This document shows positions 19,880 through 24,139 of a stretch of 64,000 bases of DNA, one piece after another (position 1 is the first letter of the stretch; each line of letters begins with the position of its first letter). Origin of the DNA: Thermoproteota archaeon (GTDB lineage Archaea > Korarchaeota > Korarchaeia > Korarchaeales > Korarchaeaceae); contig JALSOH010000006.1 in NCBI GenBank assembly GCA_026986575.1, positions 310,001 to 374,000 of the forward strand, in the 5' to 3' direction. The position numbers were made by a program, and so were the translations under genes. Under the pieces are notes generated by a model that saw only the letters and a list, made by a program, of their open reading frames with translations, had not been told where the DNA came from and ran no database searches.

Positions 19880-21331
19880 GTGGTCCCGACGAACATTGCG
19901 GCTGTTAGATCCTTGGACAGGGATGTGAGGGATGCGGTCAAACACACCTTGAACTCACTGGGCCTATTCTGGGAGGAGGTGGATGAACCAGATCCCCTGA
20001 AGCACTCCGTGGCCATATTCCCCGAGGCCACCGAATTCGTCCCCGTAACTATCCCCTCGATATTCGTGGGCGAGACGGCTCTCTCCTACTACGGGGGAGA
20101 TAAGACGGAAGTGAAGAAATCCCCACCTGAGCCTGCAGGCTTCATGGTAGTGGACAGGATAAAGATACCCTACTTCGGAGCCAAGTATGATCTAGAAGGC
20201 GAGAGATTGCTCAGACAGGCCCCTCTCTACTCCAAGGATTCGCACCTCCTCTTGGGATACGACCTCTTCAGGAATGTGAGCTACTTCCTAAAGGGGGCCG
20301 AGTCCTCCTTGGGCATGAAGAGGATAAGGACCAGCGACAGGCGCTTCAACCCCAAGGTCCTGGAGGACCTTAGAGGGGTCCCCGTATCCACCCCTATAGT
20401 TGATATGCATGCTAAGTTCCTCCTCTTCTCCATCCTCCTCCTCCACAAAAGGGAGAGACTCCCTCTCATAATGAAACAAATCCCCCCTTCTGGCTATAAG
20501 GGGGGAATGTCCGTCTCCATTCCCATATACAGGACGGGGCGTTCCGGCCTGAAGTTCGACCTGAGAAGGGTGCTTCGAAGAACGGAATCTTGGATAGAGA
20601 GGTTGATTAAGGGAACCGAGGACCTCACGTTCTTCGTGGGAAGGGGAGAGGACTACACTCCGACTAAGATCAGGGACCTGCTCGTATCGATGGAGGAGAG
20701 CGGTCATGAGGTGGGCCTCTTGGCCTCAGTCAGGGCCTCCATAGATCACATGTCGATGGCCGAGGAGTACGAGGAGGTGGCCACCCTCATAAAGAGGGGG
20801 GGCATAGGGATCAGGTTCAAGGGTATAGCCTCTACTCTAATGGACGCTTGGAAGTCGGCGGTGTACGTCGAGGCGGGATACGTACTTGCAGGCGAGATCG
20901 CTGGGGTATTCGGGTTCCCAATAGGCATCGGATGCCCATTCAAGCCTAACGGCCTTGTCTGGAACATCCCACTCGTGGGGAGGGTCTCTGATAGAGGGTC
21001 AGCTTCGAGAGCAGCGGAGTTTGTGGCCAATTGGGGATGTATGGTGGCAGTCGATGCTATTGACGAGTTATCCATCCTCTCTCTCCTCAGAAACGCTCGC
21101 GAGAGAGGAATATGGGTCGCCCCGCCCAGCACCCTAGTTGAGAGGTTCAGGGCGGTGAGCGACGTGAAGGGGACCTTCAGGTACGATAGGAAGTACTTGG
21201 AGGGTAAGATAGTGCCCTATGGTAATGTGAAAGACCTTCAACTCAGGGTGATAAATCCCGAGGGCAAGGACTCCGTCATGAGGATTGATCTGGAGGCTGG
21301 GAAATCGCACGAGATCAGAATCCCCGTATAG
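19880..21331 (+). CDS. divergent polysaccharide-deacetylase-like protein
   Basis: About 483 residues. The N-terminal half is unrecognised (a segment with YGGDKTEVKK and FRNVSYFLKG resembles the partner domain of archaeal two-domain deacetylase-like proteins). The C-terminal half reads like a NodB/CE4 fold: MSVSIPIYRTG, a strand DLTFFVGRGEDYT, a helix, then SGHEVGLLAS where true deacetylases have GHEIGLHS. The catalytic and metal-binding histidines therefore seem partly lost, so activity is doubtful. Start GTG at 19880 follows the tRNA; the frame is open upstream but overlaps the tRNA. The last 17 bases overlap the convergent endonuclease V gene. No signal peptide is seen. Confidence 0.6.
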   Translation: MVPTNIAAVRSLDRDVRDAVKHTLNSLGLFWEEVDEPDPLKHSVAIFPEATEFVPVTIPSIFVGETALSYYGGDKTEVKKSPPEPAGFMVVDRIKIPYFGAKYDLEGERLLRQAPLYSKDSHLLLGYDLFRNVSYFLKGAESSLGMKRIRTSDRRFNPKVLEDLRGVPVSTPIVDMHAKFLLFSILLLHKRERLPLIMKQIPPSGYKGGMSVSIPIYRTGRSGLKFDLRRVLRRTESWIERLIKGTEDLTFFVGRGEDYTPTKIRDLLVSMEESGHEVGLLASVRASIDHMSMAEEYEEVATLIKRGGIGIRFKGIASTLMDAWKSAVYVEAGYVLAGEIAGVFGFPIGIGCPFKPNGLVWNIPLVGRVSDRGSASRAAEFVANWGCMVAVDAIDELSILSLLRNARERGIWVAPPSTLVERFRAVSDVKGTFRYDRKYLEGKIVPYGNVKDLQLRVINPEGKDSVMRIDLEAGKSHEIRIPV

Positions 21332-22181
21332 CCTCTTTAGAAAGCCTGTGGGCTAGTATGAGGGGTAGGGGCTGCTTTCCTTCCCTCCAGAACTTCTTGG
21401 ATATTTCTATACTGCTCTCCAAGTCTATTAGGTGACCCGGGGAGACGAATGCTCTCCCCACAACGGCACCGACCACCCTGCCTTGGAGGAGGACGCGGTC
21501 CCCCTCCAATCTCCCCACCAGCTTAGACTTCGCAACTCCGATGGAGGACTTTCCCAGAAGCAACCCTAGATGTGAAGCCTCCCCTAGCATCCTCGGATGG
21601 GAAAGACCGTGTCCATCCACAAATATCACATCAAAATCACATTTGAGGGCGGAGGGGAGCATACCCCTCAACTCCCTGAAGGCTAGGTAGGTTGGCACAT
21701 AAGGTATTTGGGGTATGAATCTCTCGTAAGCCACCCCGACGATCTCCAATTTGGAATCAACCGAGACACAGGTTGCGACAGCCTCCTCGCTCCCATAACT
21801 GACATCGACACCGGCAGCCACTTCCACTTCTTTCAGGGATCTTAGATCCAGCCTCGAGGAGAGCATTAGCTGAGCCTCCGCCATCAGCCGGAAGACGGGC
21901 CAGGCCCTAATATCGTGGAAGAACTTCCTCTCCCTGAGACGTTCGAGTCCTCCCTCCTCCCTGATTCTCTTCAAGGCTCCTGGAAGTGGTTTACCGTCTG
22001 AGGACACAGCCCTCCACCAGGGAACATGAGGTGCGAGGTTAGACAACCTCAGGCACTCATTTCTCACAGCGAGAGCGGCCCTGACATCCCCAAGGGCTGA
22101 GGCTATGTCACCGAATGAAGATACCCTACCCGGGGGGATGCTCTGCAAGGCCTCAGCAAGTATCTCTTGGAAGCGCGTCAG
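21315..22181 (-). CDS. nfi: alkyltransferase-like domain fused to endonuclease V
   Basis: Two DNA-repair domains in one chain. Residues 1 to about 85 match the DNA-binding domain of O6-alkylguanine-DNA alkyltransferase (FQEILAEALQSIPPGRVSSFGDIA), but the PCHR active-site cysteine is replaced (VPWWRAVSSDG), so it is an alkyltransferase-like, non-methyl-accepting domain. The rest is endonuclease V, cutting near deoxyinosine: DVSYGSE (first Asp), YVPTYLAFRE (Glu), FVDGHGLSHPR and GVAKSKLVG. The first usual start codon (TTG 22148) would cut the conserved FQEIL helix; the frame extends to CTG at 22181, exactly 24 bases from the TATA box shared with argS, so a CTG start is proposed. An active alkyltransferase-EndoV fusion is known from Ferroplasma. 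Confidence 0.8.
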   Translation of the reverse strand: MTRFQEILAEALQSIPPGRVSSFGDIASALGDVRAALAVRNECLRLSNLAPHVPWWRAVSSDGKPLPGALKRIREEGGLERLRERKFFHDIRAWPVFRLMAEAQLMLSSRLDLRSLKEVEVAAGVDVSYGSEEAVATCVSVDSKLEIVGVAYERFIPQIPYVPTYLAFRELRGMLPSALKCDFDVIFVDGHGLSHPRMLGEASHLGLLLGKSSIGVAKSKLVGRLEGDRVLLQGRVVGAVVGRAFVSPGHLIDLESSIEISKKFWREGKQPLPLILAHRLSKEAIRGF

Positions 22182-22199
22182 CCTGATCCCTCACCACCG

Positions 22200-22209
22200 T
22201 TTTAAATAA
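22200..22209. promoter_or_regulatory. bidirectional TATA box between nfi fusion and argS
   Basis: TTTTAAATAA centred at about 22205 lies 24 bases from the argS ATG (22229) and 24 bases from CTG 22181 of the opposing gene, giving mirror-image leaderless starts. Confidence 0.6.
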
Positions 22210-22228
22210 CGAACCCAAAGTTAAAGGG

Positions 22229-24139
22229 ATGATCACAGACCCACTCGGCTCCATGAAATCAGCTCTAGCTGGTGAAGTGAATAAAGCCCTCTCAGAGATG
22301 GAGGTGGAGGAGTCCTTCTCCTCCCTCCAAGTGGCTCGATCCCCTAAGGATACCGATGTCTATGGACTACCGGTCGGATTTAAAATAGCTAGATACTTGA
22401 AGAGGAAGCCGGAGGAAGCGGCGCTTTTAGTGGCTGAGAGGATAGATGCCTCCAGCATACCGTATACTGAGGAAGTGAGGGTTGAAAATGGATACCTTAA
22501 CGTGAGGATTTCTCGTGAGGTCCTCTTCAAGGATGTCCTCTACCTGGCGTCTAGGGAGGAGCTGGGCAGGGGGGAGAGGAAGGGAGAGAGGCTCATGGTG
22601 GAGCACACCAGCGTAAACCCAGTGCATCCCCTACACGTAGGCAGCGGGAGGAACGCTATAATAGGCGACTCCTTCGCCCGAATATTGGACTTCCTAGGCT
22701 GGGATGTTAGGAGGCACTATCTAGTGAACGATTGTAACCTGCAAGTCGCGATACTAGCAGCTGGCAGGTCCAAGATGAGGCATCTCAAACCGAAGGGGAA
22801 GCTGGATCACTGGTTCGGTCTAATATACGCCATGGCTAATGCGGTACTGGAGATAAACAGGATCAAGAGAGGTGAATCCGAGGAGGGGAATCTGAAGGAG
22901 TGGGAGGAGACCATAGAAAGGGTTAGAGCCCAAGATCCTGAGATAGCCGGGGGACTAGCCGAGCTTGACGACCGCTACGTCATGGATCTCCTGAAGAGGT
23001 ATCAGTCCGGGGACCCCGATGCGAGGGAGGTCTTCAGGGAAGTTGCGGAGTCGGTCCTTAGAGGTTTTCTCCAGACCTTGGGCAGGATGGGCATAGCCTA
23101 CGATCAGTTCGACTGGGAGAGCGAGCTCATATGGAAGAGTTGGGTGAGGAAATCCCTAGAGAAGCTAGAATCCTCCGGTTATCTGGGTAGGGACGGTGAA
23201 GCGATATACGTTGATCTCGGGAGGGCGATCAGGGAGAGAGAGGATGTCAGGAGGATATTCGGGCTGACGGAAGACGAGATAAGGAAATTAGAGGAGGAAG
23301 GCAGGCTGGAGGAGGTGGTTCCTGTGAGGTTCTACCTCACCAGATCGGACGGTACGTGGCTGTATACGGGAACGGATGTAGCTTACTCTCTCTTTAAGGT
23401 GGAGGCTACCGATGTCAGGAGGTGCTATAACGTGATCGCCACTGAGCAGACCTTAGAGCAGAAGGAGGTGAGGGCGAGCCTCGCCCTGATGGGCTACGAT
23501 CCGGACTTCCTTGTACACTTCGCTTACGAGATGGTCAACTTGGTCGGGGTGAGGATGTCTGGAAGGAAGGCCCTCTATATAACGTTAGACGATCTCTTGA
23601 ACGAGGCGAAGGCCAAGGTGATGAAGATACTTGAGGAGAGGGGGATGAGCAGGGATCCGGAGATAGAGGAGATAGCAGAGAGAGTAGCTGTAGGCGCCCT
23701 GAAGTATGCCTTGATCAATGTCTCCCCGACCAAGGTGGTCCAGTTTAGATGGGAGAGGGTCCTAGACTTCGAGACGAACAGTGGGCCCTTCGTCCAGTAC
23801 TCCTACACTAGGGCCCATAACATCCTGAAAAAGGCAGGAGAGATCCCTGAATCCTTCGATCCGTCCGAATTATCGTCCGATCTGGAGGTATCCCTAGTTT
23901 ACATGCTGGCAGAGTTCCCGGAGAAGGTGAGGAGTGCTTACCAGCTTCTAAGACCGGATCTGATCTCCCAATACGCTAATGAGCTGGCCTCGAACTTCAA
24001 TAAGTTCTACGAGACCCATCCGGTTATCAACGCTCCTAAGGGAACGAGGGAAGCTAGGATGTGGCTCGTCATGGGAGTGAGAGGTGTCCTAGGGAAGGCG
24101 CTAGACCTCATTGGCGTGCCAAGGCTGGAGAGGATGTAA
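22229..24139 (+). CDS. argS: arginyl-tRNA synthetase
   Basis: Class I aminoacyl-tRNA synthetase of 636 residues. The HIGH motif is HPLHVGSGR within NPVHPLHVGSGRNAIIGD; the KMSK-like loop is GVRMSGRKALYI. N-terminal additive domain (residues 1 to about 110) recognises the tRNA D-loop, and the C-terminal DALR helical bundle has YSYTRAHNILKKA and ends with the usual KALDLIGV segment. Typical archaeal length. The transcript is probably leaderless, with a TATA box 24 bases upstream. Ends 7 bases before the convergent nth gene. Confidence 0.96.
   Translation: MITDPLGSMKSALAGEVNKALSEMEVEESFSSLQVARSPKDTDVYGLPVGFKIARYLKRKPEEAALLVAERIDASSIPYTEEVRVENGYLNVRISREVLFKDVLYLASREELGRGERKGERLMVEHTSVNPVHPLHVGSGRNAIIGDSFARILDFLGWDVRRHYLVNDCNLQVAILAAGRSKMRHLKPKGKLDHWFGLIYAMANAVLEINRIKRGESEEGNLKEWEETIERVRAQDPEIAGGLAELDDRYVMDLLKRYQSGDPDAREVFREVAESVLRGFLQTLGRMGIAYDQFDWESELIWKSWVRKSLEKLESSGYLGRDGEAIYVDLGRAIREREDVRRIFGLTEDEIRKLEEEGRLEEVVPVRFYLTRSDGTWLYTGTDVAYSLFKVEATDVRRCYNVIATEQTLEQKEVRASLALMGYDPDFLVHFAYEMVNLVGVRMSGRKALYITLDDLLNEAKAKVMKILEERGMSRDPEIEEIAERVAVGALKYALINVSPTKVVQFRWERVLDFETNSGPFVQYSYTRAHNILKKAGEIPESFDPSELSSDLEVSLVYMLAEFPEKVRSAYQLLRPDLISQYANELASNFNKFYETHPVINAPKGTREARMWLVMGVRGVLGKALDLIGVPRLERM

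Follow-up and report, generated by a model that had tools for sequence, protein, structure and literature searches.

A probable ATC start codon of an archaeal alkyltransferase-like/endonuclease V fusion gene and candidate AUH and CUG starts across its genus

The gene for a fusion of an alkyltransferase-like (ATL) and an endonuclease V (EndoV) domain probably starts at an ATC codon. It lies in the window, i.e., the whole stretch of 64,000 nucleotides analyzed here (contig C6, positions 310001-374000, within a genome of 1.91 Mb). Judged from sequence comparison, the gene would be one of a set in the genus with AUH (ATA, ATC or ATT) or CUG starts. The usual initiator tRNA would insert methionine at the ATC with the aid of the upstream element GGTGGTGA. 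The host is, as we assume, a hot-vent archaeon of the class Korarchaeia. The coordinates of all features are listed in Table 1.

The encoded protein matched the Pfam profiles PF01035 (45.9 bits) and, downstream of it, PF04493 (133.7 bits), each above the cut-off. Thus, the DNA-binding domain of an alkyltransferase is followed by an endonuclease V domain. The active-site motif is of the PCHR type without the cysteine: it reads PWWR in all 13 aligned sequences of the genus and PWHR in loci L016 and L019 of the orthologue alignment. The tryptophan at this motif is presumably the mark of ATLs. Both profiles and the PWWR motif bear out the ATL-EndoV fusion that had been named in the original prediction. 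The named relatives of the protein belong to MAGs labelled Thermoproteota or Crenarchaeota and to Candidatus Methanodesulfokora. Archaeal fusions of this kind are known: the available text of a review (PMC10779285) describes AGTendoV of Ferroplasma acidarmanus, in which the same two functions are fused, and also mentions archaeal ATL-EndoV fusions. Unlike the F. acidarmanus protein, the protein in the window is of the ATL type, as indicated by PWWR, and its gene appears to use an unusual start codon.

Table 1. Coordinates of the features discussed. Plain numbers are positions in the window; genes elsewhere in the genome are given as genome:contig:positions.
Feature	Position	Strand	Basis and remarks
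Alkyltransferase-like (PWWR)/endonuclease V fusion gene	21315..22187	-	PF01035, PF04493, orthologue alignment; ATC start assumed, stop codon counted in
argS, divergent gene	22229..24139	+	ORF; name taken from the original prediction
TTG, first canonical start codon, rejected	22146..22148	-	Conserved LTRFQEIL upstream, silent changes
CTG, start proposed in the original prediction	22179..22181	-	TTA in L006, CGA in L007, CAA in L008
ATC, favoured start codon	22185..22187	-	5/5 species; 16 codons ahead of IPxG like sisters' TTG/ATG
In-frame TGA limiting the start choice	22191..22193	-	Read from the sequence
GGTGGTGA, Shine-Dalgarno-like element	22191..22198	-	Invariant in 8/8 species; 16S tail; spacing statistics
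TATA box, assigned to argS	22200..22209	.	Distance to argS constant in 8 species, distance to fusion-gene start varies
CTTTAAC, speculative candidate for a fusion-gene promoter element	22217..22223	-	CTTT kept in 8/8 species
radA	G000:C4:352437-353468	-	L222-L238
Polyprenyl synthetase gene	G000:C4:295707-296534	-	L329-L343
porG	G000:C4:340085-340681	-	L266-L279
cutA	G000:C4:335300-335611	-	L252-L264
pyrF	G000:C6:233002-233679	-	L146-L159
RNase P subunit p29 gene	G000:C4:383507-383794	-	No NTG ahead of the conserved N-terminus in G000 and G009

The minus-strand frame of the fusion gene opens with the codons TGA, GGG, ATC, AGG, CTG, ACG, CGC, TTC, CAA, GAG, ATA, CTT, GCT, GAG, GCC and TTG. As originally predicted, neither ATG nor GTG nor a further TTG lies between the TGA and this TTG, which is the first canonical start codon. 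Initiation at the TTG, giving a protein that lacks the first helix, is nevertheless very improbable. The residues LTRFQEIL encoded upstream of it are identical in L002-L006 and L013, and all nucleotide changes in this stretch are silent. Their identity in five species despite silent changes indicates that the helix is translated and that the TTG is not the start. The TTG codon itself is replaced by CTC in L006 and by CTG in L013. Furthermore, the PF01035 match begins at residue 4, counted from the CTG, and at position 2 of the profile, so that a start at the TTG would cut into the domain. The original prediction had dismissed the TTG for the same helix, and none of the orthologues read must start at this position, with L009 left unplaced. 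A sequencing error as the cause of the missing NTG codon was rejected as well, because the genomes of four other species (L003-L006) likewise lack one; no indel restoring an ATG was found in these four closest species.

The 5' end of the fusion gene was readable in 13 of the 16 genomes of the genus; L014 was cut off, and two genomes had no match. The gene opens with GGG/GAT-ATC-AGG/CGG/CGA-CTG/TTA-ACG in five closely related species (L002-L006), the third codon being CGG or CGA in L003-L006. The ATC is kept in all five, and no ATG, GTG or TTG precedes the helix. The first NTG in L002-L006 occurs only 3 or 2 codons ahead of the IPxG motif, i.e., these genes lack AUG, GUG and UUG both at the conserved N-terminus and ahead of it. 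Sixteen codons ahead of IPxG, the clade of the window has ATC, L007, L008 and L013 have TTG, and L011 (counted by hand) and L012 have ATG. The ATG codons of L010 and L015 are located 20 and 15 codons ahead of the motif, respectively. All four variable sites within ATC-AGG-CTG are silent, a result with a probability of ~0.007 if a crude model of neutral change is assumed. A wider search covered 66 ORF rows, with some loci represented twice and at least two rows that are no fusions; its pattern did not catch L011 and L020. In this set, only L002-L006 and L009 had no NTG at least 11 codons ahead of the motif. An AUH codon is thus kept where relatives carry NTG starts, and the alignment makes ATC the likely start of the fusion gene, as known from just these five closely related species.

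A CTG start had been proposed originally, on a leaderless or near-leaderless mRNA transcribed from a TATA box shared with the divergent argS. We consider this unlikely. The need for an unusual start codon was recognized correctly, and CTG was a sensible choice in view of porG and cutA, whose CTG starts in the host genome look real (see below). Moreover, the CTG is kept in four of the five close species and also in L013. However, the CTG, 14 codons ahead of IPxG, is replaced in three loci (Table 1), and the TTG or ATG starts of the sister species lie two codons upstream of it. Since the exchange for TTA in L006 is silent, the CTG behaves as an inner leucine codon, and the arginine codon ahead of it also varies silently only. 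In addition, archaeal leaderless mRNAs begin with AUG, GUG or UUG according to the accessible part of a review (PMC7531240).

The position of the TATA box (TTTTAAATAA) was given correctly, and so was its near-symmetry: the box centre is 24.5 nt away from the ATG of argS and 23.5 nt from the CTG. The distance from the argS start (CAT) to the end of GGTGGTGA was 41 nt in all eight species examined, with TTATTTAAAA and GGTGGTGA invariant and at fixed positions, indicating that the box is more than a chance match. On the fusion-gene side, the distance was not kept. The CTG column is 2 nt closer to the box in L013, and the TTG of L007 and L008 follows the box by just 10 nt, which is too near for a transcript initiated from that box. 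As only the argS side has a constant distance, we assign the box to argS and not to a shared promoter. If an mRNA of the fusion gene began at the usual distance from this box, it would hold neither GGTGGTGA nor the ATC. The upstream CTTTAAC is a speculative promoter element of the fusion gene and could equally be an element of argS.

The conserved GGTGGTGA is located between the TATA box and the ATC and resembles a Shine-Dalgarno sequence; the 16S rRNA tail reads GGATCACCTCC. Among 235 orthologous start pairs, a spacing of 4-6 nt to the start codon was found for 74 of the 102 cases with GGTGA and for 29 of the 49 with GGTGG. Read as GGTGG, the element in front of the fusion gene has a spacing of 6 nt to the ATC, 4 nt to the TTG of the sister species and 12 nt to the CTG. 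Read as GGTGA, the corresponding values are 3, 1 and 9 nt, and a 3-nt spacing of GGTGA was found in 2 of the 102 starts. By this comparison, the GGTGG reading favours the ATC, and the GGTGA reading favours neither codon. Scans with shorter Shine-Dalgarno motifs (5 and 6 nt) were swamped by chance matches inside genes.

Other explanations for the missing NTG are initiation at another near-cognate codon (ACG at 22178-22176, or AGG), readthrough of the stop codon, or removal of a small intron from the 5' end of the mRNA; taken together, we regard them as improbable. The ACG is, like the ATC, kept in all five close species, and L009 has an ACG at the position of the ATG of L010. However, the ACG of the window is displaced from the start position of the sister species, the AGG is not kept, and the stop codons ahead of the frame differ (TGA, TAA or TAG) among species and genes. 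L009 has no NTG at its 5' end, with the first one at -7, and no AUH codon nearby; thus, a missing NTG alone does not imply an AUH start. In L016, from another genus of the same family, a perfect GAGGTGATCC is placed 2 nt before an in-frame ACG, and an in-frame GTG lies inside GAGGTGATCC. An ACG start is possible for the fusion gene of L016.

Further genes that resemble the fusion gene with its putative ATC start were sought in a comparison between 864 kb of the host genome and 1.2 Mb of a sister genome, from which 409 gene pairs were kept. Genes with a conserved N-terminus ahead of the first NTG were inspected, and five of them were traced across the genus. Many of the ORFs flagged in this way turned out to be antisense frames or to overlap the upstream gene, and these were dropped by eye; rpp29 and argG were flagged and left out of the genus-wide comparison. 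As the candidates were selected by inspection, their number is not an estimate for the genome.

The pattern in radA is, at the sequence level, stronger than that at the fusion gene. An isoleucine codon precedes the motif P[KR][KR]K in each of the 17 copies, which come from 16 genomes; it is ATC in eight, ATA in seven and ATT in two, and ATG does not occur. This codon follows GGTGA by 5-6 nt in most copies; L229 has GTGA, and L233 has GGTGG at 4 nt. A stop codon immediately precedes the ATT in L228 and L229. Outside the genus, three of 30 radA loci kept the motif (L301, L303 and L306), and all three have ATG there. The third base of the radA codon is A, C or T and never G, which suggests selection against AUG. 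Short inverted repeats (e.g., CCCCC..GGGGG, CCC..GGG or CTTCC..GGAAG) that end in the Shine-Dalgarno region were seen by eye upstream of radA in several species (L222-L235).

In the polyprenyl synthetase gene, GGTGA-N6-ATA was found in 11 of 15 loci; an ATG is close by in L339, L340 and L343, and L342 could not be assigned. The start position of porG is occupied by CTG in 11 and by TTG in three of the 14 copies in the genus, and the residue encoded there corresponds in an alignment to position 1 in the POR gamma chain of a solved structure (9bt4_E). At the same position, the 16 loci of porG paralogues, where TTG or other start candidates occur further upstream, showed CTG (5), CTC (4), CTT (2), GTG (2), GTC (2) and GTT (1). 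These mixed codons indicate that the NTG-only pattern of porG does not reflect a general habit of leucine codons. For cutA, 13 loci were searched, three of which were missed by the pattern. Five of the ten loci read have CTG; an ATG occupies the same codon in L257 and the preceding codon in L260 and L262. The spacing of GGTGA or GGTGG supports, by comparison, the starts of radA, porG, the polyprenyl synthetase gene and cutA, and fits well in radA and the polyprenyl synthetase gene. Several genes of the genus seem to start with AUH or CUG codons.

Two further genes are less clear. No NTG was found near the conserved N-terminus of pyrF in any of the 14 copies for which the frame was read, and AGG and ATA are both invariant, so that the start may be either of them (14/14 each). 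A TATA motif starts 24-29 nt ahead of the AGG, and a stop codon immediately precedes the AGG in L154-L156. Outside the genus, three of ten genomes matched pyrF, and no start could be placed there with confidence. The RNase P subunit p29 gene has an ATA common to G000 and G009; the upstream conservation stems partly from the overlapping preceding gene.

In the mechanism that we envisage, the initiator Met-tRNA would read AUC with a mismatch at the third position, and the Shine-Dalgarno-like GGTGGTGA would position initiation at the ATC. The set with AUH or CUG starts would comprise the fusion gene, radA, the polyprenyl synthetase gene, porG, cutA and probably pyrF, and we infer that such starts are decoded as methionine. 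One CAU tRNA is present among the tRNAs listed for 864 kb. A weak start codon would presumably hold the output low, and radA would avoid ATG for that purpose. It is conceivable, at somewhat less than even chances, that the genus retains AUH and CUG starts in radA, the EndoV fusion, the polyprenyl synthetase gene, porG, pyrF and cutA, with ATG disfavoured at radA, and that the stringency of start selection, perhaps through aIF1, throttles recombination, repair and metabolism. According to the available text of a review (PMC8211752), aIF1 contributes to the discrimination against non-canonical start codons. The factor (SUI1) was found in 15 of the 16 genomes of the genus, and both of the copies that were read carry an ATG in frame close to the N-terminus. 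On this basis, lax start selection through a loss of aIF1 was rejected. A throttle by aIF1 on weak starts, akin to that by IF3 on the GTC start of sigR, is our proposal by analogy.

Bacterial infC starts with AUU. The GTC start of sigR in Streptomyces is repressed by IF3, according to the accessible part of the report (PMC5472188). The starts proposed here resemble those of sigR and infC in being conserved and non-canonical, a feature that is regulatory in the bacterial cases; those systems are, however, bacterial and IF3-based, and a corresponding archaeal regulator would be an extension by analogy. Archaeal start codons are given as AUG, GUG and UUG in the available text of the review cited above (PMC7531240). 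There is one earlier case of an inferred archaeal ATC start, namely that of ribosomal protein L12ae in Staphylothermus marinus (PMC2678158, as far as its text was available). As in our case, an archaeal gene lacked a valid start, and ATC was deduced from an orthologue alignment. In contrast to that single gene in one genome, several genes are concerned here throughout a genus, and radA retains AUH and lacks ATG at this position. We found no earlier account of genus-wide archaeal AUH starts in the literature searched, in which subscription journals were thinly covered. Thus, the new aspect is the genus-wide pattern over several genes, including a recombinase, and not the ATL-EndoV fusion itself.

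For these genomes, gene finders would predict essential proteins such as RadA in truncated form or with a wrong start. The pattern also raises the question of whether archaeal aIF1 controls such starts in the way that IF3 does in bacteria. If the AUH and CUG starts are true, the usual archaeal rule of AUG, GUG and UUG has to admit an exception, one that is shared throughout a genus and, by virtue of this conservation, probably selected.
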